A stretch of 64,000 bases of DNA from Isoetes taiwanensis (taxonomy: Eukaryota; Streptophyta; Lycopodiopsida; Isoetales; Isoetaceae). Shown in pieces: positions 37,575 to 60,475 of this stretch. A model generated the notes under the pieces. It saw only the letters and a program-made list of their open reading frames with translations. It did no database searches and had not been told where the DNA came from. Position numbers and translations under genes: made by a program. Each line of letters starts with the position of its first letter. Positions within the stretch are counted from its first letter, which is position 1. Where the stretch lies: the NCBI GenBank assembly GCA_021234155.1, contig JAJEKV010000034.1, positions 1,364,001 through 1,428,000 on the forward strand, given 5' to 3'.

Positions 37575-38086
37575 AGCACGAATTCATTAATTAGAGAAAT
37601 TTGGAATTCTCGTTTAGCATGAAATAGGTTAGCGGGTAGCCATATAGTGCAAAAACTACTACCAATTGAGTAAAAGTTGGCGTTTTTTTGCACAAATTCT
37701 GCAAATGCTTCAGTCTTATTCGGAAATATAGTTTTTACTGCTAATGCAAAGGTTCACCGCGAGTATAACGTAGTAGGAGGGAGTGTGAAAACTTCTCGCA
37801 AGAAGCGCGAACGCGATGTTTCGCAGCTGAAAGGAGACGAAAGAATGTGCCTTTTATTAAAACCATATGAGAGCATTGTGTTAAAAGAAGGTACCGAGGA
37901 GCAAGGATATCACACAAAATTCAGTATTTAAAGCCATGTAATTGCTACAGAGGATCGCGGTCGCGATTATTTTTAGCATTAAACATATGGTAAAAGATAT
38001 GGGTAAAGACAAAACCAAAGTTTTCGAAACAAAAATTTCCATTGAAGGAAGTAATATACAACATAATTACTGATTGAAGGAGATAA

Positions 38087-39372
38087 TTATTCTGATTGTG
38101 TTTCAGATACTTGATCAGGTATCACACCCATTTCATTGGCCATGCGATTGACATGCTCTCTACCCAATTCCATAGCTTGTGTTGTGTCCATCTCTGAATA
38201 ACCTGTGATCTCTGGAACTACAACACCCATGGCGTTTGCGATGCGCTGCAGATGTGAATCAGGCTCCCATTCTTCACTGTCCACTGCACTGCTCCCGCCT
38301 ATAAGTTCGTTTTGCAGTAGCTCCGCAGCAGTAGCATTCTGATGTGGATGATAGAGCTTCTGCTTCTTGCTGTGTACCTGATGCTCCTGTGACCCAAGAA
38401 CCTCATCTTGGTCAATGTCCATGTGCTGTTGGTCTGCTTCCATGTGCTTTGGGTCTGTTTCCATGTGTTCTACGCCCACGTATTCAAACTTATGTTCGCC
38501 TGTCAAGAAAGGCATGTACCCATCAAGCTTCTCATTAAGTGCATTCAATTTTTGGAAAGTGGGCTCCAGGGCTTCTATACCTTTTTCCGTCTCTTCAAGC
38601 AAGCGCTTTGTTTCTTGCATTCTCTCTTCGTAGGACTTAGCATCGAGGTTTTCCAAAATGGAACCCAACTTTGATAGATCTGTGTTTTGGGTGATACCGA
38701 TGTCGGGTTGAGCTGGATCGATCGGTCAACATTCTCTCGCTTCGGCTCTTCCTCAAACCCATCGGCACTTGGATTGGCCATCTTATCAAGCGTTTCAAAG
38801 AACGCCCTCAGGAAACGGCACACTTTACCTGAACTTTCGAAAGCCACGCTCTTTTTGCCTTGCATAAGAGCAACACGAGAAGCCGTCCCAGCCGAAAAGA
38901 AATCCAGAACACAACCATCAGTCGGCACCAGCTGTTCAACAATATGGTAGGCATAGGAGGTTTTCAGCTGGCATTTCAATACAAGATCTCCTTCCATTGC
39001 CGCCCATTTGAATCTTGGTTTGCCTGTAAAAAGAGTCTGATATTTCTTTTTTATCTTCTCGTCGGCATCCTCATTACCTGTTAGCGGCATTGGAGGCAAT
39101 GGTGTTGACTTAGGAGCCTTGCCGTGTGGATATAGGTGAAGCTCCAACTCTGGTTGCACAGGTGCTACACGAACATCACTCCTGTTAATGCACATATGAC
39201 TAATAAAGTACTGATGTTCTTTCACCCTTCTTTTGCTCTCCCATCCCATTTCTTCATAGGAACCTAAAGATAGGTAGCCACCGCCCTGAATTTGCTTCTG
39301 ACTGAACAAGCAATTGGGCAAATTCACTGAGCGCATGATAATGACCAAGTGATAAACTTTGGCATCCGTCAT
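38087..39372 (-). pseudogene. Methyltransferase-like protein of element A
   Basis: About 430 codons in two frames joined by a frameshift near 38680. Residues about 140-195 ('YHIVEQLVPTDGCVLDFF', 'SAGTASRVALMQGKKSVA', 'FESSGKVCRFLRAFFETL') resemble the AdoMet-binding end of N4/N6 DNA methylases (family pattern: '..G..VLDPFAGSGTT..A....GR..IGIE....'), with the glycine loop at 38910-38875. The DPPY-type catalytic motif, expected upstream in this circular order, is not seen, so activity is uncertain. After the shift the protein is a Glu/Leu coiled coil, a 'HMETDPKHMEADQQHM' repeat, and two 'RIANAMGVVV'-type repeats. A related gene sits in element B at 55361-56173. Confidence 0.48.
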
Positions 39373-40560
39373 GGTAGCTATCCTTGTAAATAGATCTGTG
39401 TATTTCTTGCAATCCCATACCTTGTTTATCCCTCGGATGTCAATAAATATCGATTAATGCATTCTCCTATTACACTTGGGAGGAAGTAGGGATGCCATCC
39501 TTTGTCACCGCTATGACAATATTTTTCTTTTCCTTTCTTTTTTCTAGCCTCTTCCGCTATAGAATATTCCCCGATTGGCTCCAAAAGGCTACGGTAGGTT
39601 ACCTAGTGTATGATCCTTGTTATAGTTAGCCTTCACGCATCTGATATCGGATCCGATATATCCAAAGATTCTCTGTTCATGAAATCGGGAAAAGCCCTCA
39701 AGCAATTCCTCCCAGCTATCGAAATCCTTTTGCAGCAAATTTGAGGCATAAGACAAAATTTCGCTACTCATAAAAGTGAGGGTTCTGATGTCAATTGCCC
39801 GTTATGCGCAATCAAATCTCCCGCTATAACCCCGATCGCACCTTTAAATAGGTCTTGCCTTCTATAATCTCATCGAAAGCAACTGGGACAACAACTCAAG
39901 ATTCGACATACCTCGTAGCAACCGGAGCCGTCTTGTTAAAGAAGTCTTTGGATGGCTTGTCCGAAACTCACCATGATCGCCACCGAAGTTTACGACTCAC
40001 CCACGACCGGCAACTTCCATTAACTTCTTGAAAACCTTCTCATCCATAAAAATGAATTGCTTTTCATCCTTAAGCTCCCGCACTTTCAAGGTGGTCGTTG
40101 CAATTTCATGGAAATCCCGCAGAAAGCAATTTCAAGGTCATCAAGATCGCGGGGCCACGAACTTGGCGAGTAGAAAACAAATAAATACCTTCCAAGCTGA
40201 AGTTTTAGCTGTCCCTATAGGTCCTTGTGGAGGGCAACCATAAGCCTTGTGCCGATGACGGTTGTTGCGCTTTTCAATCGGTGGCTCTCTCACACCTGGT
40301 GTTTGCAATTACTTCGTTGCATTGAATACTCAACTCTATATATTCCTTTGTCCAGAAGATTTCGTTCAGCACCCTCGATCTTCTTCTAGCATATACTTTG
40401 AAAATTCTCGTTCTTTTGCTCGAACTTCATGCCGACGAATCAACAAAGGAGTTGTGCAAAGACAAATACCGTGGGTTGCCGTAAATAATATAAAATTTCT
40501 TGCCCTTCAAATCTTCCGATTGCTCCATGTCACCCTCCTCCTCGAAAGATAGACAACCGT
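39373..40560 (-). pseudogene. Upstream coding relics of the methyltransferase gene
   Basis: Minus-strand fragments in changing frames look protein-like: 'GINKVWDCKKYTDLFTRI' leading into the gene above, 'MSSEILSYASNLLQKDF', and 'KDEKQFIFMDEKVFKKL'. They may be exons or frameshifted parts of one large protein. A palindrome copy lies at 40143-40164. Confidence 0.35.
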
Positions 40561-40911
40561 CAGTCAAATCTACATAACGAAAGTGTCCAAAAGATAAAGA
40601 ATTAGTTACCCGGTAATAGGGTCAAACGAACGGCGTCCGCCAGGGGTGAGGACCTCTCACTGGGTATGTCTTGAAGCTTTTAACCGTAGTTTGAACATGG
40701 TCATTTGACCGCATTCTCAGGTGTCAAGTTTGCTGGTGCAGGTTCACAATCAAAAATAGAAATCTTTGTAAACCAATTAACCCCTAAGGGGTAGAACCTT
40801 TGAACCTGCTCAAGCTTCGAAAGTGGTTTGCTCTGCGATCTTAATTCCTCTTCGGGATTGAACTTCAACTCGACCGAATGGCGGTGTGCTTGGGGCCATG
40901 TCAATGCTAGT

Positions 40912-41770
40912 TTAGAGGAGGCATTCGTGAATCGAGGGGAGGGGGGCGGGGGTTGAGAACTGGCGGGTCATGCGGGCTATCCTCACGAGGTGTCGATTCT
41001 TAAGGCTAATTTTGAAAGGAGGGAATTTTTTGGAATAAATCCACCGATGTGTATTGCTATCCGGGGCCTTCATAGCAATAGGAAGAGTAGGGTTAACAAT
41101 ACCGGAGGGGTTTATCGTGGATTGTGGTTCTTGAGCAATTTCTTTTGGTGCTGAGGTCTCTCCCAAAGTAGCAATAGGCTTCACACTCTTTTCTTGGCCA
41201 CGGCTCTTAGCCAATTGGTGTCCATCACGGAGGGCATCTTCTCGTCCCCAACCGCTTTCAAGGCACAAACGGAGGCTTCTTGTGCAGAGACAAACCATTT
41301 CTCGCATGTCGAGAACCCGAGCAATATGTCTCTGTTCCCTTTATACCGATAAAGAGATTCATAGGATGGCAACAACCAGCCATACCCCTTAGCCGACGCC
41401 GGACGTTTTTCCCTCGTGGTCGGCTTGTTCATTTTGCTTTGGCCGCCATCAAAGACGGGTCATAATTGCGCCATTTCAAAATGTACTCCGTAAACCGCAA
41501 TGCTTGTGGGTCCTCAATGCCGCATATGATGGCATCTTGCACATTGTTCTTCGTGCCTTCCCACATTGCCACCACTATGCCAACTTGTTCAACGCCCTCG
41601 GCTTTTTTCCAAATCCAGAAACAGCACGTGTCCTTTCCTTCTGCGATCACCCTTAATGTGCGGTATATAGCCCGTGCAATCTCGATACACCATTTCCTTT
41701 CATTGGAAGGGGTTATAATACGGACCGGCTCGACATCCGGTCCTCTAAGAGAGCAAGTCTTTGTAAACAA
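40912..41770 (-). pseudogene. Unrecognised gene relic in element A
   Basis: Three consecutive, overlapping minus-strand frames (41770-41429, 41432-41181, 41307-40912) read as one protein with frameshifts or short introns: 'ERKWCIEIARAIYRTLR', 'CCFWIWKKAEGVEQVG', then 'YGWLLPSYESLYRYKGN'. Position relative to the methyltransferase matches the ORFs at 54.5-55.0 kb in element B. No family recognised. Confidence 0.4.
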
Positions 41771-42004
41771 AAGCTCAGAGTGAGTGCCCGGTAGGCTGCA
41801 TAATGTGGTGCAATAAAAGGTTTAAACTATCAGAGAAAACGCGACCACATCCCCGCCAAGCAAGCCTAAAATAGAACTCCACACAATGCGCCGCGACTTT
41901 GTGTAGCACTTAAGCACGGCAAGAAAACACATTGCCGTCGCGAAACTAATGACCTACTACACTAGTACCGATGAACATCGCAATAAAGAAAATCTATGCT
42001 CAGC

Positions 42005-42245
42005 CGCACCACGTCAGCGATCTTGATGAGCAGCTACACTTATGAAGACCGCTATCCGAAATTATAAAACCAATCAAGCAAGACCACGGTCACGATCTTG
42101 ATGAGCAGCTACACTTATGAAGACCGCTATCTAGAAATTATAAAACCTATCAAGCAAGACCACGACCGCGATCTTGGCCGAGCATCTATACTTATGAAAA
42201 CAATAGAAATTCTAGTAGGCAAGATCGCGGGCCGCGATCTTGCCG
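42005..42245. repeat. Palindrome-bearing ~80-bp tandem repeats
   Basis: Three or four units share 'gatcttgatgagcagctaca' (or its variant), 'cttatgaagaccgctatc' and 'attataaaacc.atcaagca'. Each ends in a copy of the element A palindrome. The last copy (42221-42241) is a perfect 21-bp palindrome: 'aagatcgcgg', a central g, then the inverse. Confidence 0.85.
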
Positions 42246-43322
42246 AGCTGAAATGTTAGAAAATACCTTCTCTGAGGGAGTCCTTAGGTGCCATGGGATC
42301 GCTGGGCGGGTTCAAGATCTAAAATATGGGTTTTTTTTGGAGTGGGTCTGGAGCTTCGGAGGTCGGCGCTTAGGCTGAATGAAATCGCGAGTAGAAATTA
42401 GTTTTTGAATGTTTTGAGTTTCAATTTATAGAACGCGGCCGAAATTAAATGCCCGCCCCTCATGATGGCGCTGCGGAAAAACGTGCCGACCATAATGGCG
42501 TCCAGAGCGCCGCAAGTAATAATTACCGGCGTACGCCGCCGTATTTATTCCCTGACATTAATGCGGTCGTGCGAATATACCCGTCCGGAAAGGCCAGTAA
42601 CCCGTACGAAAGGTCTTTATCCACTTGGACGTCCGCGTTCAATTTCGGGTCATAATTTCGGACCTGACACTTTATCCAGCCATAAATGCCTCCAAAATAT
42701 CCGGTTTACGGACGGACAGCGACTGCAAAATTTGAATTCGAGAACAAACCAATTTGAGAAAGCGGGAAAAGCCAATTCAAATTTCATTGTTTTGCAAGAT
42801 CTTCGAGGCGCTGGAGCTGCGCCTAAGCTAGGCCAAGTTTGGGCAAGGATTTGCTTTGCAATTCGCATCCATTGAAGGCGCTGACGAGGGCGCTGATAAT
42901 CCGCTTGCAATCCGCCACTACACACTCGGAATTCTGCAACTGCATCGAATTCAGGGTTTCTACCGAGGTAATAGGCCTATTCTGATGCATATCCCTCACT
43001 GAAGTGAACTGAACGTATCAGTAATGCACTGAATTTCAATTATAACTGCAACCTCCGAGTCTCTGCACTAACATTCACTATGTATTGCATGGATTGATAA
43101 GATACCTCCTGATACTTTGTTGCAACTATGTAAAAATAGATGTTCTAAGCAAAACTGTGCACTCTGGTGTGTTTATTATACAATGTAGTGTTTCAAGTAT
43201 ATGCTTTCTTTCTCTATGTGGATGAAACTAAACACTGTTTTTATGACACTAAACACCGTATTCTGTGAGGTAGGAGTAATGCCTTATTCTGTAAGTCAAT
43301 CGTTTAACTTTGCTGCTCCACG

Positions 43323-43611
43323 AGATCGCGGTCGCGATACCTTCAACCATCTACACTTGCTATTGACCAAAGAACTCCCAGATATCGATAACTTAGAGTT
43401 GAACCCACTAGCTAGCCTCGAAATTTGATTTGCACGAGTTCTTATTGAAACAAATGTGTGAATGCTTGCAAATAGCGCGACCGCGTTCTTACCCATGCTC
43501 GATAAGATCGCGGTGGCGAAAGTCGTGACCATTTCTTTTTTTCAGTTCATATTTTTGTAGTGGTTTATGATCACGGTGCTTTACGCTCACTAGGATCGCG
43601 GCCGCGCTATT
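43323..43611. repeat. Cluster of element A palindromes
   Basis: Copies at 43323-43340, 43471-43490, 43504-43524 and 43592-43611 are variants of 'agatcgcgg.ccgcgatct', just upstream of the DUF7869-like gene. Another copy lies at 37953-37968 near the left end of the element. Confidence 0.8.
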
Positions 43612-43634
43612 CACGCGACCTCTTGTTTGGAGGA

Positions 43635-45482
43635 TGGCTGATGTAATTCCGTCAGATCTGGCCGGGGAAAAAGGTGGCGTAAGGAAGAGTCCACAATTTG
43701 AGCGCCATCACAATTCGGACCGTCCCGAGGGTATGGTTGTCGCTTCAATTGTGAATGTTCTGGATGGACAGTTACGCTACCAATTCCCGAATTGGAAATA
43801 GAAAAAATGGGTGAAGCTGTGGGGACTTTTGTGTTGTGGTACAAGAAGGACATTGTTGCTCCACTAGATAGACATGAGGAAGCTTGCACCCCACCAGGTC
43901 AGATAAAAAGGATAGACTGGCAGGACAGAGGGAATGAGGGGTTAGCCACTAATGAGACGAATCATGTGCAAGGGCTTTCTAGAGATGAGTTAGTTGAGAA
44001 GGCGTGCACACTCATGCATGAATGCTGCTACATGGCTTATGCCTATGGTGTTATCGTTTTTGCCGATCCAAACCATGCTGTGTCTGACGTGAAGTTAGGG
44101 GAAGGCTCGATAGTCGCTACTATCATGGACATTTTTCCAATGCCCGAAAAGATCTCTATCTTGCCGCCAGTTCACGTGCGTAAATGCCCCAACTGCATGA
44201 CCTTGTGAGATGGCCCATAGCCCTCGTGCTCGTTGATAACATTCCAGTTTCTACTCTTGTGGTTGCGGTGAAGGAGAAGGATGTGGAGAATGAACCTTAC
44301 TCCATTAGACCCGAAATTGGCATCACCAAAAAGAGACCTTACAGCATGGTCAATCGGAGACCCAGAACACGCCCAGCACAGACTAAATGTGAAAGAAAAA
44401 CTAGTGCTGAGGCTATTCTAGACTTCAGGTCATCACTGTGCTGCATGAAACGATGCTGTGCAAATTTTACATCCCAGGAGATAGCTTGCATGAGAACCTT
44501 TTACTGGAACATGAAGTCCTCGGAGCGCACAACTTTTGCATATAACATGCTAGATCTTTGCTCTGAAAATGGTGTAGTCCGCAAACTGATGTTGAATAAC
44601 AAACAAAAACGGGGGTGTGCGTGAAAGCATGGCATAAAGCCTATGGCATTCCCATTTCCACTTTTTACAAGTGGAAGAAGCTCTTCAATGACGGCCACAG
44701 AATTGCTGAGCACGGAAATACTGGGTCTAAGAAGCCAAGGTCTCATACTTTGGCTGGCAATGCTGTGCTATCCATGTTCATAGATGAAAACGCAGACGAT
44801 GCCACACCGCCGAAAATTACGAGCGCGGGGTAGCGCACAAAATGTTAAGAGGCTACCTTCAGTCTTGACTAAGAAGGATATACACCAAGAAGTAGATATT
44901 TCCGTTACAGAGATGACAGGCAAGCATATTTCTCCTTCGTCATTTCTGTCTGCTTGGAAAGAGAATCATTCAGAGGTAGCAATAGCTAAGAGGATAGCAT
45001 TTTCCAAGTGTAACACCTGTATTGTCATAAAGGAAAAGCTTGCTAAAACCAGAGATCCAAACGAAAGAAGGGTACTTGCAATAGAGAGAAAATCACATAT
45101 GACGGCCCAGATTTCATGCAGGAGCCTTTACTGGTCCTGGAGAGCTTTGTCGCATAGATCTCCTGAGCACGCTTTAACCATTATACATGATAAGATGGAT
45201 CAGAATAAGACCATGGTCCCTCGTCTAGAGAAGCTAGCAAAGTCTGTATGGAGGGGTGAACGACTGAAGGTCAGTGTTACAGGTGCTCTCATGCACGGCC
45301 ATGGTATAGGTGCCTTGGGCCACTTCTCACTGGACCTCTGGCCTGATGATTCTAATTTTCATGTGGGATCCTTGAATCATACCTTGAAGACACTGGAGAA
45401 TAAATCTGAGGATAATTGGGGCCATTTGAGAGATACTGATCGTCCTGAAAGCAGCTGGGGTGCAGCAATTTTAAACACAGAT
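43635..45482 (+). pseudogene. DUF7869-like transposon protein, N-terminal part (element A)
   Basis: Protein-like sequence continues through four overlapping frames (43792-44208, 44184-44624, 44615-44833, 44784-45482). Landmarks shared with the homolog at 48700-45735 are 'GVIVFADPNHAVSD', 'SSLCCMKRCCANFT', 'AWHKAYGIPISTFYKW', 'FSKCNTC', 'MTAQISCRSLYWSWRAL' and 'IIHDKMDQNKT' (Asp at 45189). It ends in 'AILNTDN' exactly where element B is inserted, and 'LRTKMMNGSRN' continues the same frame at 57783. In this family the conserved acidic residues suggest an RNase H-like transposase, but that is inference. Frameshifts make it inactive. Confidence 0.72.
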
Positions 45483-45514
45483 AACCATCATTCAATTAAA
45501 TTGGGATTATGTCT
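45483..45514 (+). repeat. Element B left TIR
   Basis: 32 bp, the perfect inverse of 57747-57778. Confidence 0.92.
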
Positions 45515-45734
45515 TAATTTTGGGATAAATTTTATATTGCACTTTTTTAGTAACTTTGTTAAATTCACCTTTTTAGTAACTTTGTTGCCCTTAGACTAGA
45601 ATAGACGTTAACATATAATCACACACGGGAATATAAACTCACACCTTAACTTCAAATTACAAAATCATATATCATGGAACTCAAGTAGTACACAACTTTT
45701 ATTAACTGTAGAAAAGATACATAGTAATTGTGAT

Positions 45735-48700
45735 TCATTTTTCCACTAGCATCCCCAAGGATATGAGAACCTTATTCCTTACATCCTGAGGTATTGTAAC
45801 TCTCGCTGTTTTACTAGGAATAGTTTTTGGAGTCCACGAGTACAATACGGTTTCAATGTCTAGCCAAAGATCAGGATCACTTGGATTTCTCCTCCACCTC
45901 TTTGTCCAACAATCTGAATATCTTTCTTTATCGGTGACATTACTCAACTGATGTACTTTGGACACCACCATTCCACGCCAAGCACCTTATTGAAGTTAAC
46001 ATCACCTTCTTCTTTGCAAATATCCGAGATAGTCCATCCCAACCACACTGGATAGGTCTCTAGATTTGCTGGTTTTACTACTACAAATTGGTTGCACTCC
46101 ACGTCAGTAGAAGGTTCATAAGAATCCATGCCTAGATATTTTGGCCTATCCTTCTTAGGACCAACATAGTGTTTATCAGATTGAGGAGGAGCATATGCCT
46201 TCACAATGCTACTAATGGTACCATCATCTTCGTCAGCACCAGCTAATGTTTTTCACTTACTTTTAGGGAACCACCCTTCTTTCAGCTCTTCAGAGGATGT
46301 GTCTACCTCATCCAACAAGTTGATCACCTTCTTCCAATAATCTATCAATGCACGATTTGTGTCATCTGAATTAGTTTGCCAATGCTTGATGTAGTCATTG
46401 ATGCCATCCTTAGTCAATCCCAATTGCTTGACTTCTTCAGTTGGTTTTAGAGCTTTTGGTTGACCAGGAGGTATCATAGGCTTGCCATTTGCATCCCTGC
46501 GCCAAATTTCTGCCCCACCTCTCCACTTCTCCTCTGAAGGTCTCATTTTCCATTGCATGATTGGAATCCCTTCTCTCACCCAAAAAGTGAATTGAAGAGG
46601 TCTAGAATGACCTTCCATGTCGAGAGCATAACCATCCACAAAACTCTTCCAATCAGGCACTTCTTCTATGATAGATCCTATAGGAGATGGATTTGTACAT
46701 CCATGAAATATTTCCAATAGCCTGAAAGTTGGTAACCGTCACTGTCTCAATACATGACTATATTTTCCAAACAATGCATCCACATCCTCATGAGTATGTC
46801 CGGGCATTAGGAACCCCAAATTGACTCTTTCAAAAACACCCACAGCTGTTAAGTAGGATAGGAAAGAAAACATCCACCTGTTCTTATTTTGACCAAAGAC
46901 AATTATCTAGTTGCAAGAGGAACTTTCTGGGCAGGATCTCGAGGTTTAGCACGAGATGTTGAAGCTCCAACATGTTCATTAGGTCCATTCCTCCTAAATC
47001 TTGCCTTGGTAAACTTTTCAATACTATTAGGGGTTCCATCCAACAATGCACTATGTAGTGCCCGGCTAGTCAGTAGGATCCTGTAGGTGACCATTGTAAC
47101 CCTTCTCATAGTTTCTTAAACACCTCATGATACTCCCAATGTGAAAATCTGGACCATCACTCCACAACTCTAAACCGAAATGGCCATAATAGGTCCGAGG
47201 CTGCCCATGCAATATTGCCCCATCATTGAAATCTGCAAAGGGTATGATCTTCCACATGACTTAGGAATGTACTTGAATTGTGGAAGACAAGTCTTACTGT
47301 TGGTCCATTTTATCATGTATAATACATAGATAGTTATTAGGTTCCATTGCGTATAAGGTCCTCCACATCCAATAAGTTGATCTACATGATAGTTGATCTG
47401 TCATATGGTCCTTCATATGTTCCCTTATCTTTGCCCTTAGACTTGGTTGCACAGTCTTATCTAGTGTCTCCTTCAGCTTGGCACATAAATTGCACTTGGC
47501 AAAGTTGTTTGAAGTTGCTATGGTCACATGCTTGAAATGCCTATTCCATAGCCTACTAAAAAAGCTGGCTGGGATATAGAGGCCACTCCAAGTTCCCTCA
47601 AGCAATGCATTTATTTCCTCTAATATGCTCTTCTGGGTACAATGGGATGGCAATCTCTTTTCAACAATAACTCTACCCTGTTCATCCTTCTTACTCTTAT
47701 GTGGCATGTTTTCTGCATTGAAATCCACATATCTTTCAAATATTTCCTTTGCAGCTATAGTTCTTGAGGTAGGCCTTACCAGGCCATTGTTCCCATGCAA
47801 TGCAATTTTACTACCATTTTCATGTCTCTTTTGCCAGTTGTGCCAAGAAGAGGTTGGAATTCCATGTATAGCCATCCATGCTTTTGAACATATCCACTTT
47901 CCATTCAATGGGAATCTTATTTTCTTTGATCTTTCATCCTGAATTGCATAGCCAAATATGGTGTACATGAAATTCCTCCTGCTATCACACTTATGTTCCT
48001 GATATGTAGCTCTTGCTACCACCATCTCTTCTATTGTGAACATTCTAATACAGGAGGCCCAACAACATTCACTTCCTCTAACCTGCATCAGGGCTTCCGG
48101 AGAACAATCATAATCTGACTTACATCTTTTGGTGGGATAATGTTTGAAAGTTGGAAGTGGCCTCTTGCTACACTGTGTAAACATTATTGACAATGGTTCT
48201 ACATCTATAGGAAACGTGTAGTTCCCCTCCAGTTGAATACTGTCCCTAGGCCATGCAACAATAGTTGGAACCTCTAGTTGCTTCACACAAGCTAGGCATT
48301 CTTGTTTGCCTGAACCCTTTTCCTTCCAATTGTCATATAATTTTGAGATTGCCACACCTAACCTGTCCTCCCCTAATCTTTCATCATTCACTGCATTGAT
48401 AGGATCTGCTAGAACAATAATCCCTTCTCCTACTGCCTCTCTGTTGGATGCATGCAGGATCTTGACCTTTTTGTTTTTCCAATCGACCCTAGTATAAAGT
48501 ACAATTTCCTTTCCTGTGGCATCATCCTTTTCATTTGAGGTCTTTTCCTTTCCTTTGCCATCATCTTTGTCATCTTCATCCTTTTCATTTCTGGTCTTTT
48601 CCTTTCCTTTCCCATCATGTTTGTCATCTTCATTAGTTGGGGATTTTTCTTTGCCTTGATCACCATCATTGGGGGCCTTGGGGGATTTAGCATTTTGCAT
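45735..48700 (-). pseudogene. DUF7869-like transposon protein (element B)
   Basis: The first frame (48700-47294, ATG start) gives 468 residues. The N-terminus has charged 'DGKGKEKT' repeats (residues about 10-60), followed by 'GIIVLADPINAVND', 'GSECCWASCIRMFTIEE', 'AWMAIHGIPTSSWHNW', 'FAKCNLC', 'MTDQLSCRSTYWMWRTL' and 'IIHDKMDQ'. The protein then continues with frameshifts or stops: 'GHFGLELWSDGPDFHIGS' (47257-47066), 'LLQLDNC' near 46930, 'NKNRWMFSFLSYL' and 'GFLMPGHTHEDVDALFG' (about 46880-46760), 46717-46253, 46204-45944 and 45971-45735. The Asp/His motifs match element A. It probably encodes the mobilising enzyme, but as read it is broken. Confidence 0.72.
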
Positions 48701-49200
48701 GCCATTGACCTAAAATGAATAAAAACCTATAGTAAGTTAGCATATCCAAATAACATCTCCCTAACATGTTCTTAAATGAAAGTTAACCTTAATAATAACC
48801 TTAATAACCTATTATAACTTAATCTATAATAATAATAAGTTTACCTATAATATATTAACTTTTAAGGTTAGAAGTTGTAAGGTTAAAACTTCTAACCTTC
48901 AATAAATATAACCTTAGCCTAAAACTTCTAAAACTTAAAACTTCTAAATTCAAATTCATAAACTTTTAAACTTATAACCTTATTTATGAACTTAAAAATA
49001 TTAACCTTAACTAATAACCTTAACTTATAAACCTTAAAACTATTAACCTTAAATCTTATAACTTATATAACCCTTGCAATAAATGTTCGCGGCAGTTATT
49101 ATGGCGCGGTACGAAATTTTTTAAAGCAGTTATTATTTCCAGTTTACAATCCCTTTCCCACTTTTCCAGCTTTTCTGTCTCTCTTTCGAACTTCAAACTC
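48701..49200. repeat. AT-rich 'aaccttaa' degenerate repeats
   Basis: Many irregular copies of 'taaccttaa', 'cttataacctt' and 'aacttctaa' upstream of the minus-strand gene. It looks like a degenerate minisatellite in the divergent promoter zone. It is not a clean telomere repeat. Confidence 0.6.
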
Positions 49201-49720
49201 TGGTGCGCTTTCGAACTCTGCTGGTGCGCTTTCGAACTCTGCTCGCTTTTCTGTCGAGCTTTTCGGCTATCTGCTTTCGATCTATCTATCTACTTCATTC
49301 TGTCGAGCTTTTCGGCTATCTGCTTTCGAGCTTTTCGGCTATTTGCTTTCGAGCTTTTCTGGCTATCTATCTGCTTCAATCTGGCTATCTAGACACTTCA
49401 ATCTGCTTCAATCCCGAATTCTATTTGCTTCTCGGCTTCTATCTGCATCAATCTCGACTTTTCGACTTCTATCTTCTTTAAACTCGGCTTCTATATGCTT
49501 TAAACTCGGCTTTTCGAGCTTAGGGTTTTCGGCTCAAAGTTGTTTTCGGCTCCAAGGTTTGTAGGCAGAATTCTCCAAGGTTTTTCGGCTCTGTACAATC
49601 TCTCTGACTTTGAATAACTTTGGTTTTTTGTGTTAAAGCTACTCGGCTTCTAGCTGCTATTACTTTGGTTTTCGATCTTTTGGTTTCGGCTCGAAGTCAA
49701 AGGCTCAATTCTCGGGTACA
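49200..49720 (+). repeat. Degenerate 'cttttcggctatctgctttcgag' repeats
   Basis: Repeated 'gcgctttcgaactctgct', 'gagcttttcggctatctgc' and 'ctcggcttctatctgct' units of about 20-30 bp. This pyrimidine-rich tract may be the 5' leader of the plus-strand cargo. Confidence 0.65.
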
Positions 49721-49899
49721 GAACACAAATAGGTTAGTATCTCTCATTCTTTTAGTTATTTTACAGAAAGCATGTTATTTACTTTTACATGCATCAGTAT
49801 ATTTACCACAGTTAATTTAATCAGTTAATCAGTTACTTTTACATGAATCAGAATATCCTGCTCTATGATCTTGTTCTGTGATCTTGCCTATATGATCTG

Positions 49900-50160
49900 C
49901 TCTTATTCTATTTCACTAGCTCTTCCTCTATCTGTTCTAATTGATGATCTAAAATAATGAAGTTATTCTATTTCACGAGCTCTTCCTCTATCTGTTCTAA
50001 TTAATGATCTGAAATAATGAAGTAAATAATGATCATAGATCATATCTGCTCTATGATCTTGCTCTATGATCTATGATATCATAGATCATAGATCTTCACT
50101 AGCTCTTTCTCTATCTGCTCTAAATAATGAACTAAAGCAATGAACTAAACAATGAACTAA
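49900..50160. repeat. Tandem 60-bp duplication and 'atgatct' repeats
   Basis: 'ttctatttcac.agctcttcc' units at 49907 and 49967 start two ~60-bp copies. They are followed by many 'atgatcttgctctatgatct' motifs around a palindromic 'atctatgatatcatagat'. Confidence 0.75.
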
Positions 50161-50402
50161 TACTGGCTTTATATTTTGAATTCTGCATTCTGCATTATGC
50201 ATTTTGTTAGAATAATATGTTGGAATGGGAGAAATCGCGCTTGGCGCATTTCTATTTTTTAAGTTACGTTTTCCACTAGGTTAATCAAATCGCCGCCAGC
50301 GCTTTTTTTAGTTTGGCATTTCAATTTCATACGGCTCTATACAAATCGCCCCGGTGGCGTGTGAAATAGATCTGTGCTAATTACTTTCTCTCGTTCTAGT
50401 GC

Positions 50403-50801
50403 CATGGATTTTCCTTATGCATGGACACCGGGCTGGTTCAAATACACCGGGCTGGTTCTAGTTCCCCTGGGCGACCATCAACTCGACCCCGCACAAGATA
50501 TTACTTGAGTGTCTTTGTTCAAAAACGTTCAAAGAGAGTTGGAGAATCCATTAGACGGCTTTTGTATCGGGGGCCATGGGTACACTTCCATCGCATCTAT
50601 GGACATATCGGACTCCTCATGCTCTTAGTAAGGCTCATGCCAACAAATAAGTACAAGGATTTGATTTATAGTATCGTGGATCGATACAACACTCGGTTTG
50701 GAGACTCGACATCCAGCAGGGAAGATGAGGATCCCGTCATATCGTGGTGGTTCAGGTGGGACTTCTTGGGGATTGGGCAGATGAAGTGGGCCTGTGTGTG
50801 A
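50403..50801 (+). CDS. Unrecognised small cargo ORF, element B
   Basis: Open frame of about 130 codons ending TGA at 50801. The C-terminal part is protein-like ('YKDLIYSIVDRYNTRFGD', 'EDPVISWWFRWDFLGIGQ', 'MKWACV'). Element B palindromes lie before (50232-50362) and after it (50822-50905). No family recognised. Confidence 0.4.
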   Translation, partial: HGFSLCMDTGLVQIHRAGSSSPGRPSTRPRTRYYLSVFVQKRSKRVGESIRRLLYRGPWVHFHRIYGHIGLLMLLVRLMPTNKYKDLIYSIVDRYNTRFGDSTSSREDEDPVISWWFRWDFLGIGQMKWACV

Positions 50802-53392
50802 CATATTGTAGAGATAGAAAGAATTCGCCGCTGGCGATTTTTGCGAAGAAGAAATGTACATAAGATTTTTGAATATGAATACAAACTCGGCGCTGGCGCT
50901 TAATTTGCACTATACTTTTCCTCGTCATTAGTTTATTTTTTTTTTTATATGCAATGGCGAAAAATATTGAATCCTGTGATGCCCTCCAGCCGGTATGACC
51001 AACCCCAAGAAACTACCATATTTTCATTAATGTGTAGTTTCATGGGGTTGATAAAACTGCTAAAGACCATCCACCAATTCAAAGTTCACAACATCACGCA
51101 GACGATATGATATATTCTTTTTTTTTTTGAATATCCAAATATACATACCTTTTTCGACGTTCTTTTGGCCATGCTACAAATGTGCCCACACTTTCACCAA
51201 CCGTGACGCCAGGATGTCTTCTTGGAAGAGCCTCATCTTCATAATTGCGGTTTATAATGGAAATCTTACGTAAACTGTTTCCAAGAGGAACACCATGACA
51301 CATTGAATTTGGATTCGGATCTTGATTTTACATAAGCCTACTTCGGCGCTTCAAGTTTCTTTGTTAAAAGATAGCATTCTTCTCCTATTAATCGATAAAG
51401 AACCGAATTCATTGGAAAAAATAGAGGACGAAAAATAGAGAACAAGAGAATGCATTGAATGGAATCACACTCACCATAGTTCAGCGACATCGAATGGGAT
51501 TGAAGGCGGCTCTCGATCGAATGGGATTGTAGGCGCTTTGATAGAAGATTGTTCTTGGGCCTGAAAGTAGGAATGATCTTGGGCTCGATAGTAGGAATGA
51601 TCTTGGGCTCGATAGTAGGTGGCCGATTAGGTGGTAGTAGATTGCCACATATGCGTTTCTTGAAATTAATAATTAATGGTTCTTGAAATTGCACTAAAAA
51701 GAAAAACACAATTTTAAATTTGTAAATGAGCGGGACGGGCGGTTAATTAAAGGCGGTATAAATTTAAAAGGACGCGAATTTGAATTTACTGGGTTTTAAA
51801 TCTGACGCCAAGATTATGAACGATACATATAAGTTTAAACCAAAATCCTAGCCTCATACTATCCGCACTTGCGCTTCAATGGCGTCTAGAGGATCTCGCA
51901 GCCCGGCCGAGGCGCCGGTAGAGGTGGGCGGCAGTCCAAAGCACAAATGCAAAGCCCGGAGGTCTGAACACGAAAAGCACAAATCCAACAAGCGCCTCGG
52001 GTAATTGATCCGTTTTTGTTCCAGAATTGATCTCTCGTGTCCCTTTTTTGTTAGGGTTTTTAGGATGTTTTTCCTCAGAAAGTTATTATCCAATAAGAAG
52101 CATGTGTCCTCTAATGTTTGAGTTCATATGTCCCAAAAATGTATGGAAACAAATGCTTAATGTGTACTTTAATTCTCAGATGTCTTGCTTGAAGCTTGTA
52201 TACTTAGCTGAACAAGATTCAAAGAGCTAGTTGTGTTTTTTATAGTTAGTTGTGTCCTCGATGAAGATTCAACTCTTAAAGTTGCATTTTTATAGTTAGT
52301 TGTGTCCCGAGCATTTTGATTCGGACAAAACGCCCTGGCGCAGCTTTAATTAGGCATTACATTAGTTTCATTATCTTTCGGTCACTTCTAAAACGCCAAG
52401 CGCCGTATTTGTTGCATTTTGATCGGGACAAAACGCGCCACGGCCTCGACCCCAATAAACTAAATGAACTTGCTGTGTATTCATTTTCAAATCGCCAAGC
52501 CGCCGCGTTTTGTTGCATATGTGTCGGCGACATTTATTTGAGCATAAAAAGATTAACCCATGTCTTTGTAATTTCACGGGATCACAAAAGACAATCAAAA
52601 GAGGGAGGACCAAGCAAGGCGAGACCTCTGATCCCCGTAAAAGGCAAAGGACGTAAGAAGATGTTACCGTTATGCACTGCTAAAGATGTATTGACGTTAG
52701 AAGATACATCCGAATAATAAAGGCTCGTAGAACCTCCATGTCCGGAAGAAGATCTTATAGAGGGGTCGAAATGGTATGTGGAGATATTCAAAACTGGTGG
52801 GAAGACAGACCTCATATTCATGTCAAGGTTAAGAGAGACCCGATCAAATGAAGAAGCAGGAATTCTTATTATATGTGAAGCACGGATCGATTCTTTACGC
52901 TTACATTGCTAGTTGAAGTGGGCCAAAAACATAAGAAAAGCCTAAAGAAGATCAATCGATGCGGTCACGAGCTCTTTTAAAGAGAGATCTTTAAGATCGC
53001 ACGACATGGCCGATAACCTCTTCAAATTTGGTCGACAGTGGCGAGCCATTGACTCCTATAAGAATATGCGAGGGGCTTACAAATTGCTCGACGAGCCATT
53101 AGCACGAGGCCCCCGGGCAAAGGTCTACTTACAGGCAAAGAAGGACAAGGAAGAAGCTAGCTCTAGAGGCGTGGAAACTACGAAGTGACAAAGCAGCCTT
53201 ACAAGTGACGCATGACAAGGCCAGGCGCTTGGAGGCAATGAGCAAATCAAGAAATATGCCGACAAGTATCCACTGGGCCTCGACTTCACACATCCAAATC
53301 AACGCGGGATGTGGAGCTTTTCAGTCCACTAAAGCTATTTATATCAGCAGAAGGTATGACAAGCAAAGACTCCTTGGAGATATTGAACAAAG
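50802..53392. other. Broken cargo region with palindromes, element B
   Basis: Short protein-like frames, for example 53006-53188 ('MADNLFKFGRQWRAIDSY'), alternate with palindrome copies near 52327, 52391, 52430 and 52488. I cannot assemble a gene. A 52316-52717 frame contains several palindrome halves and is probably not coding. Confidence 0.4.
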
Positions 53393-53602
53393 ATGATCGA
53401 AAAATCCAGTGGCAAAAGCAATGCCCGCAGATGTAGTGCCTTACGATACCGTAACAAAAAGGTAATCATCTGGAGCAAGCTGGAGGACTTCATCGAGAAC
53501 CCAGACATACATTTTATGATAATAGATGGCCAGCATTCAATAGAGGCCCAGAAGATTCTCATCAAGAAGGCACAAAGATCTTGGGAATCGGTTGTTCTAT
53601 AA
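53393..53602 (+). pseudogene. 'DGQH' ParB-like protein fragment
   Basis: 69 codons ending TAA at 53600-53602. The core 'NPDIHFMIIDGQHSIEA' has the DGQH(R/S) signature (53525-53539) seen in ParB/Srx-like and DGQHR domains, which act in DNA partition, nucleotide hydrolysis or phage/transposon cargo. Upstream coding sequence in other frames ('TSKDSLEILNKDDRKIQW') suggests a longer, frameshifted or intron-split protein. A ParB-type function is inference from one motif. Confidence 0.42.
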
Positions 53603-53822
53603 GTCAGATTCATCGAAACCGCGGTTCGAAAGCCGGTCAACAACACCGAACTAGCCGAAATAAGCGCGACTCCTAAATGACATGGGAAAAACTTTCTTAT
53701 ACAAAAGGTAATTCTCTTCCCACATTTTTATTTTTCAGATACCAAATCGCGCCAGGCAACCGCGATTTCATAGTAGAAGGCAATGGGTTCCTGGGATGGT
53801 AGACGTTTCCCGTCAAATAAGC

Positions 53823-53911
53823 AAATCGCGCCTGGCGCGATTTTATATTAGAATACAAGTTGAGCCACGCGCAATTTGTATTCTAATATAAAATCGCGCC
53901 AGCGCCGATTT
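53823..53911. repeat. Nested palindrome cluster, element B
   Basis: Two 21-bp palindromes (53823-53843, perfect; 53891-53911) are joined by inverted arms ('ttatattagaatacaa' and its inverse), so that about 89 bp form one larger palindrome with 36-bp arms. Further copies flank it at 53743-53768, 53970-53990 and 54004-54024. Confidence 0.88.
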
Positions 53912-54543
53912 GCTTTATACGACTAGAACCATCTACTATTTCAAAACCCTTTGCTATTTAGCGAAAGGCAAATCGCGCTGGCGCTTATTTGCCTTCTAAT
54001 ATGAAATCGCGGCGTGGCGCGATTATAAACTAGAAGGATTGTTTGAATTCACGATTATAAAGCTAACGGTTATTCCTTTGCGATCCCTATATAGAGCAAC
54101 TTCGCATGCTCGGAACCGATGGATTGAATATGGGAAGCCAATGCCTACCGAGCAGGGCCAGTCCAAAAGCGCCAATTCAAGTTCTTTGGAAAGGACACTT
54201 AGTCGATCTATAATACGTGACAAGAACAAGAGCACCGGATCAAAGAAAAAAAAAAAAGGAGATGAAAAGGGTGATGTTTGCCAAGAACCAATCTGTGCCC
54301 AAGGATGCCTCGCAAGATAGTTTTTGCTTCCGATCCCGTGATGGGAGAAATGGAATGAATTCAGGGACGCCTACGTGGAGAAGAAGTTGCCGATTCACAA
54401 GGAAGATTTCCTCCTCGCTGACACATCAATTTTGATATCGAGACAACAGAGATGAGGAAGGCCCAGATTAGAAGATCAAGAACTCATCTCGCCTTGGATA
54501 GGTTAATCGAAAGGAAATCCTTTACAAGAAAAACCTCAAAGAA

Positions 54544-55190
54544 CAAAGGCTATGGAATCCTTTGAAGATGCATGCGACGAAATGAAGAATATTAGAGTGC
54601 TCAAGAAGGCGCTTGGTGAGGAATTGCAAAGGCTTACATCGAGTGGTCGCTGTCGGAGTTAGGACTCATGCAAAGTATAACGTCTCCAACGACGACCTAA
54701 AGAAGTATGTATTTTGGTCCAAGGACTTTGTCAAGCGGCCAGGTTGAAGAACGTTGCAAAGATCAGTGGAATTCACACAAAAGTTGCATCCGACTTGAAA
54801 CGAAAAGTCGCGTTGGTGAAGCAGAACCCGGAGACGGAATCCACATTTTTTTATCAAGTGTCCACTGGTTTCAAGTGTGCCTTGCCAGAAGTGGGTGAAG
54901 GTCCTCATGATATCACACTCTTCGTGCTTGATAGTCGAGGCGCCAGATGGTCACTTGAAGACTATAATACGCTCTTCAACATATGCAAGTGGGTTGCAAC
55001 GGCGTAAATGCATTACACAATCGTCACTATATGTCCCTCCGACATGTCCTATGCATATGCTCTAAGTGCTGCAAATGACTTAGAATGCGTGAAAGTCATA
55101 CGACAGGCGATCCTCATAGATGAAACCAAGGACAGTGACTTCAAAGACAAAGAAGTAAACTTTCTCATGTGCTTATTATTATGATAGCCA
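54544..55190 (+). pseudogene. Unrecognised cargo gene relic, element B
   Basis: Pieces in different frames: 'MESFEDACDEMKNIRVL' (about 54551), 'LKNVAKISGIHTKVASDL' (54714-55007, with 'VALVKQNPETESTFFYQV' and 'DITLFVLDSRGARWSLED'), and 'MHYTIVTICPSDMSYAYA' (about 55011). They lie just upstream of the methyltransferase-like frame, as do the equivalent pieces in element A. 'TICPSDMSYAY' could be a degenerate relative of the DPPY segment of N4/N6 methylases; this is speculative. Confidence 0.4.
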
Positions 55191-55360
55191 TTATGGATGA
55201 TAAGGAATATGAAAGGCTTAAAGGGAAAAGCAGATGGAGAGAAACTAGCATGGCGTGCTATCGGTTAGATGAACGCATCTCGCTAAACGCCTTCTATCCG
55301 GAGCAAGAAGACAAGGGAAGGTCATCAAGGTCGTGGAAGAGTTAGAGGAGGAAGAGGAGG

Positions 55361-56173
55361 ATGAGGAAGAAAACGAGGGGCGACCCAGTTCTTGTGGGCC
55401 ACATTAAGTATGAGCTCCTAACTTCACATAAGGGGAAGCTAAACAAGAACGGGTTCTCTATGGATCTTTCCCAGTATCTCATTGAAGCATTTTGTCCATT
55501 GGGAACAACTTGCTGGGAACTTCACGTTGGAGGTTACATCGGTAGAGAAGCTTTGAAGTTAGCAAGGAAATGCCAGAGCGTCGTCTCCGATGATCGAGCC
55601 AGAAATTTTTTGGACCTCTTCTTTGAGAAAGTACTAGAGGAAGCCCCTAGGGGACCAATCGGCAGTGCAAAAAACAAAGCTTCTAGCTCGAAGGCCGAAA
55701 TACCTTCAGATTTGCTTAAGGAACGGGAGAGTCTGAGACAGGCATTGCGTGGCACCAACTTCATGGATGACATGGACGAGCAGCCAGATCTCCAAGTACC
55801 TATCGACATGCCTGTGAACATTCTTGGCCCTGAAAATATAGACCAGTATGACAATGCCAAGGATGATGATAATAACAATCTTGATGATGAAGCAGACTCC
55901 AAATCTGATAACACTAGCCAGGTTAGCGTAAAGAGTAATGAACTATCAAGCGTAGTTCACACTATACAGATCTCAACTGATGTGGTTGGTGCTTCTAGCA
56001 GACCGGAGGCAATTCAGAATAAAGATGCAAGGGATGAAGAGAACACGGGGAATGATGAAGACGAAAGGTATCGTGACAATATTCCTTTTTTTGATATCCA
56101 TGCATTTTTCAAACTAGAAGCTTATAGAAATCGCGCCTGGCGCGATTTGGAGTTTCCTAGAGCATACTTTTGA
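55361..56173 (+). pseudogene. Methyltransferase-like protein C-terminal part, element B
   Basis: 270 codons, first ATG at 55361. It continues a frame with 'YRLDERISLNAFYPEQED' upstream after a stop. Residues about 35-85 ('YLIEAFCPLGTTCWELHV', 'ALKLARKCQSVVSDD', 'RARNFLDLFFEKVL') resemble the AdoMet-loop and following strand of N4/N6 DNA methylases and align with 38910-38790 of element A. The remainder is acidic and disordered (residues 160-245, Asp/Asn/Ser-rich). The last ~15 codons run through a palindrome copy (56128-56148), which may have altered the C-terminus. Confidence 0.45.
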
Positions 56174-56198
56174 ATTATGTTGACATGCATCATTCATG

Positions 56199-56219
56199 AA
56201 ATCGCGCCTGGCGCGTTTT
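56199..56219. repeat. Element B palindrome copy pair (56128-56148 and here)
   Basis: Two copies 71 bp apart. The first is identical to that at 53823; the second has one substitution in the right arm. A further copy lies at 57429-57449, and a half copy at 57731-57742 next to the right TIR. Confidence 0.85.
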
Positions 56220-56301
56220 TGTTTTCCATTTCTTTCATCTCATACGTTATTGTTCTCCTTACGTAAAATGATTTGGCTTCCCAAAAGTACCGGTCTTTGA
56301 T

Positions 56302-56520
56302 TTGAATGGTGTGCTATGTAGAACGTTACCTAAAGCAACGTTTGAAAAGTCATGGTATCTTAACAACCATTTGAGACACGTACCAAATATGTTTACCCGC
56401 CCCTTATCCGAAGGAGATGTTGGACCAGGCCTTCACCGTTTTGCAGCAATTTGGTCATCCATGGAGCATAGAAATATACGTGATGTTTTGAAAGTAGTGC
56501 CCGAGCTAAATAGAAATTGA
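56302..56520 (+). CDS. Small cargo ORF, element B (unrecognised)
   Basis: 72 codons from ATG, 'MNGVLCRTLPKATFEKSW' to 'VPELNRN'. Protein-like composition. Downstream, in another frame, 'CLRNMMDALGVEDKEGII' and 'DDDALKCCFNP' (about 56600-56705) may belong to the same broken gene. The latter has the look of an acidic nuclease C-terminus, but this is not enough to assign. Confidence 0.35.
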   Translation: MNGVLCRTLPKATFEKSWYLNNHLRHVPNMFTRPLSEGDVGPGLHRFAAIWSSMEHRNIRDVLKVVPELNRN

Positions 56521-57152
56521 AGCCCATCCGGGATCAAAGCAAATGTGCTTCATTCACAAACCCTAAAGAACCGAAGCAGGTAAAAAGATATTTGTGAAAT
56601 GCTTGCGCAACATGATGGATGCCCTAGGTGTTGAGGATAAGGAAGGCATAATCATTGTGGATGATGACGCTCTAAAGTGTTGCTTCAATCCGGTCCACAG
56701 TCATTGAATCCGCCATCCTATCATCCTCAAGATTTTGACAAAGATGACTTCCCCGCTTTGTTAGTGTCCCGCAAGAAATAGCTTCAGAAAAACGGTCAAG
56801 AGATATACACACACTATACCCACACCTTGATCGGACAGGGAAATTGACAGGGAACTTGAGAAAATCGTCCTAGAAAGGGAACTTTTTGATATATATGTAT
56901 ACAGAAATACACTTTCCAAAAAGTTTTGAATATGAAATATACTTTATCTAAAAAGGTTTTGAATATATATTGTGTTCTTTTATCAGCATTATTGGTTACG
57001 TATGGTATTATTATTTTTTTATATTACGTGTACGGTTTGTTATACTTGCAATAATTTGTAGGTATATACTGTCAATAATTTTGGTGTGTATAAATAGGTA
57101 TGCATGAAATAGCCCCTGAATCGGCTTCGGTCTCCGCCTTCTCCTTGTTATT

Positions 57153-57383
57153 ATGGCACATTCTATTACCTGCAAGATGAACCATGCGGACCTCTGCAGG
57201 TGCCGCGAGCTAGAAATAGAACTTCAGGACTGGCTTGATGTCGTTGCTATGAATCTTGTCCGCTTCTATCCTGATCCCTTTAATGTTGTAATCCATCTTA
57301 TATGGAATCCAGAGCATGGTTTGTTCATGATCGACAGGATCTCAGGACCGCCTGCAGCGCCTGAGGACGATGAATCTGATTAG
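57153..57383 (+). CDS. Small Cys-containing cargo ORF, element B
   Basis: 76 codons from ATG at 57153 to TAG at 57381. Contains 'CKMNHADLCRCRELE' (C-x3-H-x3-C-x-C), then 'DWLDVVAMNLVRFYPDPF' and an acidic end 'APEDDESD'. A TATA-rich stretch lies upstream. A single intact frame between palindrome copies is compatible with a small protein. No family recognised. Confidence 0.4.
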   Translation: MAHSITCKMNHADLCRCRELEIELQDWLDVVAMNLVRFYPDPFNVVIHLIWNPEHGLFMIDRISGPPAAPEDDESD

Positions 57384-57746
57384 TTTTTGTAGTTTATGTT
57401 CTATTGTAATGCGTTATTTATGCCAAGCAAATCGCGCCACGCGCGATTTGAACCACGAAAATCTCTGTTTTGTAGCAACTTGCTTGTTGTTATTTACTCG
57501 TAAAGCTTTACAATTTCATTGTTTAGATTTCGTTGTCGTCCGTGAATGTGCGAATTAATAGGCAATTTCCTGCTTTTTCAACTGCCTACATTCTGTCATA
57601 ATATGGGTCATTTGCATCAAATATTTGAATGCCTTTGCATTTTCACATAAAATGCATATTCCCAGCCCGAAAATGAACACAGTGCAAAAGTGTGGTTAAT
57701 TCAATATAATGGTCAATAAAATGCTTATACGGCGCGATTTTGGAAT

Positions 57747-57778
57747 AGACATAATCCCAATTTAATTGAATGATGGTT
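57747..57778 (-). repeat. Element B right TIR
   Basis: 32 bp, the perfect inverse of 45483-45514, immediately followed by 'agataacc'. Confidence 0.92.
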
Positions 57779-57782
57779 AGAT

Positions 57783-59060: not shown

Positions 59061-59199
59061 GGTATGCAATGCTCTTTTACATAATTACTATATCATTCAT
59101 AACATGAAAGTTACAATAGACTAGTTATTATTTGTTACGCCTCTGCGTTTCCATCTCAACACAAGAGCTCTTACACTATACAATGCTAAACAGTGATTC

Positions 59200-60180: not shown

Positions 60181-60347
60181 ATGTACACGTACAAGTATAA
60201 CACAAAATTTGTATGTATATGTGTATGTTAATTACCTCATGTTTGTTGGGGTCGAGTACTAGGTGAAAGTATTCGTGCTTGAGCAAATAAGGTGTGCTCA
60301 AAATTCTCAAAATTGCGTTATTTTATCCAATTAATGAAATCATCCAT

Positions 60348-60475
60348 GAACATAGAACATGAGTCATGCCGGAACAACGAAGGCCACCAAACCTGGAAGT
60401 CCGACCCCCGAGGATCCAAGTACATACAAAATCAAGAACAACAGTGGGACAATGCAAATGGGTCGTTTTTATCCC
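60348..60475. repeat. Resumed repeat Y beyond element A
   Basis: 'gaacatagaacatgagtcat' to 'ggaagtccgac' and 'aacaacagtgggacaatgc' are the inverse of 35755-35630. This continues the right arm interrupted at 37574 and proves the element A boundaries. Confidence 0.85.

Follow-up and report, generated by a model that had tools for sequence, protein, structure and literature searches.

Family-specific palindromes in the non-coding DNA of DUF7869 transposons of Isoetes taiwanensis are candidate binding sites for an element-encoded protein

A 64,000-nucleotide stretch of the Isoetes taiwanensis genome (assembly GCA_021234155.1, contig JAJEKV010000034.1, positions 1,364,001 to 1,428,000; hereafter the window) carries a 12.3-kb DNA transposon, element B (45482..57779), nested in the DUF7869 gene of a second transposon, element A. 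Element B contains many copies and variants of a short palindrome, AAATCGCGCCWGGCGCGATTT, and we found that four DUF7869 families each carry a palindrome of their own. In element B these palindromes stand outside the exons, keep their positions between copies, are present in non-autonomous relatives, and in places are amplified in tandem. Judged from these sequence patterns, they are probably binding sites for a family-encoded DNA-binding protein, most likely the product of the second gene of the element. A sequence-only reading of the window had offered three ideas for the palindromes, and binding by an element-encoded protein is the best supported of them, on the basis of the sharp 21-bp boundary of the motif, its family specificity, its non-coding location, its retention in non-autonomous elements and its tandem amplification.

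All 13 sites listed by the sequence-only reading carry the motif; 12 of them differ from AAATCGCGCCWGGCGCGATTT by at most 5 edits and the remaining site, 50343, by at most 6, and the two copies described as identical, at 53823 and 56128, are both exact. At up to 5 edits, 13 sites were found inside element B (the 12 just mentioned and an additional one at 53857) and none in the other 51.7 kb, which bears out the claim that within the window the motif is confined to this element. The same threshold gave no site in the reversed window and 1, 0 and 2 in three Markov shuffles of it, and at up to 4 edits 11 sites in B stood against 0, 0 and 0. At 6 edits there were 19 sites in B, 4 outside, 3 in the reversed window and 11, 18 and 7 in the shuffles; because chance matches turn up at this distance, single sites at 6 edits are weak alone. 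Genome-wide, the exact motif occurred at 623 sites of the 1.66-Gb assembly versus 0 for the reversed pattern, and the version of the B flanks, AATCGCG-N0..14-CGCGATT, gave 1418 matches versus 9 in the control; among the 50 matches listed, the spacer was 5 in 32, 2 in 6, 6 in 4, 4 in 3 and of other lengths in 5.

The palindromes were then placed on the gene map of element B, whose ends are perfect 33-bp terminal inverted repeats (TIRs) with the terminal sequence TAACC (left, 45482..45514, plus strand; right, 57747..57779, minus strand). The target-site duplication (TSD) is 2 bp, GA, and the frame of element A stays open once the flanks of B are joined with a single TSD copy, that is, at the empty site. 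A TSD of 2 bp, with varied sequence, was found in all seven B-family copies that have both ends, and was ambiguous in a non-autonomous relative. The B TIR has 1574+1599 matches genome-wide (up to 3 mismatches; controls 0), and by this count the B family is a very abundant transposon family. On the minus strand, 45735..48709 holds the DUF7869-type gene from probable exon 2 onward, which is homologous to the gene of element A (tblastn, 3e-32), its own Pfam match falling below the cut-off (E 0.011); DUF7869 looks like the transposase of the B family. Probable exon 1 lies at 51152..51330 on the same strand (a short match to the exon of A, E 0.003), with a 5' splice site kept in the 9 sequences aligned there, and the gene thus probably has a 2.4-kb intron 1 reaching to about 48710. 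The second, or cargo, gene occupies 51881..56520 on the plus strand, with its ATG and splice sites kept across copies. Shared splice sites place its exons at about 51881-52001, 52578-53707, 54085-56066 and 56259 onward, and its introns, at splice sites common to most copies, at about 52002-52577, 53708-54084 and 56067-56258; acceptor AGs are garbled in the window and some copies, and the map follows the reading of the remaining copies.

Each of these introns holds palindromes. A cluster at 50232..50910 (50232, 50287, 50343, 50822 and 50886) lies in probable intron 1 of the DUF7869 gene, and further clusters lie in intron 1 (52327..52511, from the alignment of copies), intron 2 (53744..54026, including the exact copy at 53823-53843) and intron 3 (56128..56219, two palindromes, that at 56128 exact) of the second gene. 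Another palindrome (57429..57449) stands 3' of a small open reading frame (ORF) at 57158-57383, and a half-site, AAAATCGCGCC, adjoins the right TIR (57730..57741, minus strand). The left 4.7 kb of B, left TIR included, has no site at up to 5 edits. The earlier statement that no copy lies in the DUF7869 gene therefore holds for its exons but not for its probable first intron, which contains the sites from 50232 to 50896. All 13 window sites, and all 21 positions recognised in the alignment described below, fall outside assigned exons. The non-coding share of the palindrome-bearing half is 49%, and the chance that all 13 sites fall outside exons would be 8e-5 if they were independent; the sites are clustered and therefore not independent.

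Next, ten stretches taken around listed TIRs or palindromes were compared with the window. Nine of the ten proved to be B copies (one partial), with roughly 69-94% identity depending on the stretch, and the tenth, C590a, has no B interior. Palindromes stood at matching places across the alignment, at 21 positions each occupied in 1 to 10 of 10 sequences, and each of the eight long copies had 12-20 sites within 5 edits (reversed, 0) and the partial copy 10. C590a is a 1.62-kb non-autonomous element, and a relative, C182, is 91% identical to it; both share with B only the TIR, about 75 bp of the right end and 3-4 palindromes, the interior being otherwise unrelated. At 30 TIR loci, the 19-base motif (up to 4 mismatches) had 7 occurrences in 45,990 bases of inside sequence and none in 43,665 bases of outside sequence. 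The sequence-only reading had named equal density across the genome, or absence from other copies, as results that would count against it: the motif was unevenly spread both in the window and in the flanks of the 30 TIR loci, and it was present in the nine further aligned copies, a B-like left end on C2 lacking it. Eleven of the 30 TIR loci are right-type ends, among which AAAATCGCGCC was exact in 7 and carried a change in 4; it was found in none of 19 left-type ends. Palindromes are also amplified in tandem, in 42-bp units in copy C67, 34-bp units in locus L063 and 42-bp units in locus L064. The C67 array consists of 3 units of 42 bp at the place of the intron-3 palindromes of the window, and many B sites stand outside arrays. 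Garbled sites aside, base preference at the 44 distinct B sites whose core is exact runs 5 bp beyond GCGCCNGGCGC and then fades.

The palindromes were thought to be specific to element B, which is right for the B motif only, since element A also has palindromes, of another sequence. The left part of A occupies 37580..45481 and its right part about 57780-60345, the exact ends not being fixed; the right part contains DUF7869 (PF25273; Pfam E 1.3e-34), and a homology search with the DUF7869 protein of A found nothing. Repeats, direct and inverted, flank element A (34170-34948 with 60499-61307, and 35624-35734 with 60348-60458), and a large foldback lies at 35730-37574; together they suggest further nested elements around A. 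Its motif is GATCGCG-N2-CGCGATC. Within 4 edits of AAGATCGCGGNCCGCGATCTT, 8 sites were found in A and 0 in B, elsewhere in the window or in the reversed sequence, and the looser AAGATCGCGNNCGCGATCTT at 4 edits gave 10 in A, 1 in B, 1 elsewhere and 0 reversed. A-type palindromes lie near the left end (37953..37968), at 42080, 42156 and 42222 (42008..42240, with 75-bp tandem repeats at 42008-42198), and at 43323..43609, 5' of the DUF7869 gene of A. Genome-wide, GATCGCG-N0..14-CGCGATC had 929 matches versus 13 in the control; among the 50 listed, 37 had spacer 2, 7 spacer 1 and 6 spacer 3. Motifs A and B thus have the half-site ATCGCG in common and differ in its spacing, 2 versus 5 bp. Among three places with the A motif, L061 and L062 carry A-like DUF7869 and second genes (protein identity 36-58%, DNA 66-79%); the third, L063 (451 bases), is too short for genes, and its sole match to A is 55 bases that start within a palindrome. 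L063 has 8 palindromes, seven of them spaced about 34 bp.

Furthermore, four DUF7869 loci were picked without regard to palindromes, L064, L065 and L066 for the longest open frames and L067 for the best E-value. DUF7869 had 9,903 first-look candidates in the genome, and all 150 that were scored exceeded the cut-off. L064, with a DUF7869 (PF25273) match of 4.4e-51, forms one family, C, with L065 and L066 (coding DNA of L064 and L066 66% alike). It carries 5 copies of AAGTGTATTCNNGAATACACTT (motif C) plus a variant with one more base in the centre; a single copy is present in L065, and L066 has no exact one and 4 copies of TATTCCGGAATA. The family C sites are flanked by the DUF7869 frame on one side and a divergent reading frame on the other. 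Genome-wide, AAGTGTATTCNNGAATACACTT had 3039 exact matches versus 0 in the control; on C46 its sites lie 2.1-2.3 kb before the DUF7869 match, and on C16, the only other scored match on the contigs listed, no motif C site was found among the matches listed. In L067, GGTATNAATTNATACC (motif D) occurs 7 times at up to 2 substitutions. At L067:1147-1162, GGGATTAATTAATCCC differs from GGTATNAATTNATACC by one change per arm with the palindrome kept, a possible compensatory pair. Palindrome centres with 8-bp arms numbered 12, 2, 3 and 4 in L064 to L067, versus 0-1, 0-1, 0-2 and 0-1 in ten shuffles of each.

The whole analysis covered 285,980 bases in 67 loci, from one genome and four families. Comparing the four motifs at up to 2-3 substitutions, we found 17, 76, 18 and 7 own-set matches for A, B, C and D, and 1 in all other sets together. 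This sole cross-set match was motif A in the B set (reversed, 1); B, C and D matched in their own sets only, and the rest of the window had no match for any of the four (reversed D control, 1). The A set was partly found by the A motif and the B set partly via palindrome places, so that own-set counts are partly by construction; those for C and D are not, except that the motifs were chosen from L064 and L067. The B motif had 0 matches in viral contigs. In the open-licence literature we found no paper on DUF7869, and matches to 'aaatcgcgcc' were, among those listed, unrelated by title.

What protein might read these sites? We propose that the binder would be the product of the second, non-transposase gene, acting as a dimer that recognises a pair of inverted half-sites, which in A and B are ATCGCG with a spacing of 2 or 5 bp. 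With sites across introns and promoter DNA, such a protein could coat and control copies of its own family only, and non-autonomous relatives with sites would be served in trans. Keeping copies unsilenced, as VANC does, would be its likeliest task, ahead of preparation for transposition or repression of transcription. One palindrome per DUF7869 family would mean no cross-talk between families. That every DUF7869 family has its own palindrome binder and arrays in non-coding DNA, so that the families escape silencing independently, is a broader proposition that we hold only tentatively and rather doubt.

Several observations weigh against this interpretation. A B-like left end of 1.5 kb on C2, with no right TIR found within 13 kb, has no palindromes in those 13 kb (L005+L059+L060, C2:110577 onward). 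Specificity also loosens at relaxed thresholds: at 5 edits, matches to AAGATCGCGNNCGCGATCTT in the window do not exceed chance, and at 4-5 edits motif A matches B 8 times (reversed, 4) and the remainder of the window once, motif B matches A twice (reversed, 0), and motif C matches B 9 times (reversed, 1) and the remainder once. L061-L063 were found by the A motif, and only their gene content is independent; three of the four motif-blind loci (L064-L066) are the single family C; L065-L067 are only 1.8 kb each, placed by the layout of L064; and motif D was read off L067 itself. As for the proposed binder, the second genes, family C included, have no domain recognisable by Pfam, the C gene is unlike its counterparts in A and B, and a read-through query of the second gene found no homologue. 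In element B in particular, no Pfam family passed the cut-off and the last stretch of the gene had 0 matches among solved structures. The AlphaFold model of the second-gene ORF of A, aligned with four B stretches, has a pLDDT of 34.9 and is unusable; stretches that looked methyltransferase-like or ParB-like are not claimed as such. A homology search with an intact 986-aa DUF7869 protein likewise found nothing. Finally, if the assembly changes described next mark methylation, the B copies would be unprotected in the sequenced tissue.

The variety of the B sites is a separate matter. It had been noted that many variants still form inverted pairs; many instead are copy-specific garblings of a uniform core, and the arm changes are not compensatory overall. 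No compensation beyond shuffled pairing was seen in 20 distinct A-type and 44 distinct B-type sites, the one exception being a B offset that falls outside the motif (0 of 2000 shuffles) and whose signal perhaps comes from shared longer flanks; the lack of overall compensation suits a protein motif more than a paired structure. Copies and sites that are otherwise unrelated share identical odd strings (GCTACC/GGTAGC), and at each of three sites matched by position between two non-autonomous copies one is clean and the other garbled; similar garbling occurs in coding exons. On the earlier idea that the palindromes are methylation targets, their core, which is CCWGG and CG-rich, carries changes such as methylated cytosine would be expected to give. 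We consider it quite probable that B-site variety is mostly assembly error at methylated CCWGG/CG/CHG cytosines and that the true sites are close to uniform, a view that bears on the variants and does not conflict with protein binding.

Supportively, differences near CG/CHG amounted to 19.7-29.7% versus 3.0-11.4% elsewhere in 4 window-versus-copy comparisons (window versus C170: 19.7% of columns at CG/CHG versus 3.0%), and to 24.9% versus 3.9% in one similar pair whose loci were picked by TIR spacing, their B membership unconfirmed. Substitutions were commoner at CG/CHG in 5 of 5 stretches, as were deletions in exons 2 and 3 (3.2-3.3% versus 0.9-1.1%) and the repeated odd strings at unrelated sites point the same way. 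Against it, deletions at 50200-50900 (8.4% at CG/CHG versus 8.5% elsewhere) and in intron 2 (15.8% versus 13.2%) show little such bias, insertions in exon 2 are commoner away from CG/CHG (25.4% versus 6.3%), and real deamination hits the same cytosines, C>T or G>A making up 0.31-0.43 of substitutions there and 0.17-0.24 elsewhere. In a bacterial benchmark, methylated CCAGG/CCTGG accounted for about 70% of nanopore consensus errors (Wick 2019, PMC6591954). Given this benchmark, the CG/CHG pattern and the CCWGG core, many variants are read as assembly error, and we think that they, together with part of what looks like decay in the second gene, reflect assembly error combined with real deamination. 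The pattern hints that the palindrome sites may be methylated in the sequenced tissue. In the parts of the assembly sampled, for example window 51881-56520, CG/CHG cytosines are also a frequent position of frameshifts and of garbled splice sites (TTACAG appearing as TTACGT), a pattern suggestive of consensus errors that are linked to methylation and could mislead the annotation of genes. Users of the assembly should check reads before calling frameshifts or garbled palindromes decay.

Among other functions, the palindromes could be cis-sites needed by the transposase or an accessory protein for excision, like the subterminal repeats that TNPA uses in CACTA elements. The half-site adjoining the right TIR and the non-autonomous element that retains TIR and palindromes fit this, and in CACTA elements, too, the subterminal motifs vary from family to family and combine a GC-rich with an AT-rich part (PMC2613891). 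The B sites, however, spread over 7 kb of introns and flanks, full sites being internal rather than subterminal and none (up to 5 edits) lying in the left 4.7 kb with the left TIR; we regard an excision role as unlikely, yet the strongest of these competitors. Host transcription-factor sites, captured by each family as promoter or intronic enhancers, would account for the C and D sites upstream of the DUF7869 match, beside the presumed gene start. Such capture appears improbable, since four motifs are each nearly confined to their own family's sequences among those compared, and three of them (A, B and C) far exceed the reversed control genome-wide, a pattern that would call for several host factors that have few sites elsewhere. 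Tiny palindromic parasites inserting into transposon introns, another of the earlier ideas, would explain many near-identical copies with differing flanks, but the positions agree across B copies, the motifs are unlike between families, and in three stretches inspected site number changed through larger deletions and duplications rather than clean 21-bp insertions, with no target duplications noticed; this origin is very improbable. The idea that the sites act in intron transcripts, as RNA hairpins or splicing signals, is equally improbable: introns hold most of the B sites, but a 21-bp palindrome with a 1-nt centre makes a poor hairpin, arm changes are not compensatory overall, and in C and D the DUF7869 match lies downstream of the sites.

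Were every DUF7869 family to have a palindrome and a binder of its own, the genome would be a natural library of co-evolved protein-DNA pairs and a testable set for specificity change, A and B sharing ATCGCG with spacings that differ by 3 bp.

Binding by an element-encoded protein can be set beside three known systems. In ParB/parS, palindromes of about 16 bp are bound by an element-encoded dimer. This label, attached in the sequence-only reading, is not supported for the DUF7869 elements: a ParB-like stretch was seen by eye only, no Pfam ParB match was found, the sites are dispersed, and a plant transposon would not be expected to have a partition function. CACTA elements such as En/Spm offer a nearer parallel, with family-specific repeated motifs tied to a dedicated element-encoded binder, TNPA, with non-autonomous copies served in trans and with sites that are subterminal (PMC2613891). 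Here the sites are mainly internal; instead of motifs near both ends, B has just a half-site by the right TIR, and instead of CACTA termini and a 3-bp TSD, the B family has TAACC and 2 bp.

The closest described anatomy is that of VANC21 and VANC6 of the VANDAL elements, which are Mutator-like transposons of Arabidopsis. Hosaka 2017 (PMC5735166) describes a VANC21 motif that is private, stands in VANB21 and VANC21 introns as well as upstream of VANA21, and forms tandem repeats that vary between copies, and VANC is portrayed in Sasaki 2023 (PMC10398659) as acting on non-coding regions contested with RNA-directed DNA methylation (RdDM). The likeness extends to a family-private short motif, differing between related families, often arrayed, and scarce in coding sequence relative to introns and upstream non-coding DNA. 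We found such a motif concentrated in non-coding DNA (by the exon map of B only) and tandem amplification that varies between copies. In contrast, the VANC21 motif is described as a 9-mer arrayed in one orientation, and the present motifs are palindromes of about 16-22 bp; the transposase here is of the DUF7869 type (PF25273 matches in A and L064, with B below the cut-off but homologous to A); and no Pfam family, hence no VANC (DUF1985-type) protein, passed the cut-off in any second gene examined, the A and B genes being broken as read. Because of the different transposase, the palindromic sites and the lack of a recognised binder, we assign the DUF7869 system to neither VANC nor TNPA. If our inference holds, it would nevertheless work like both. 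Should the broader proposition on all DUF7869 families be true, they would form a much more varied counterpart of VANC that evolved separately, with many matched protein-site pairs, and would suggest that the kind of sequence-specific self-recognition seen in VANDAL is not peculiar to one transposon lineage.

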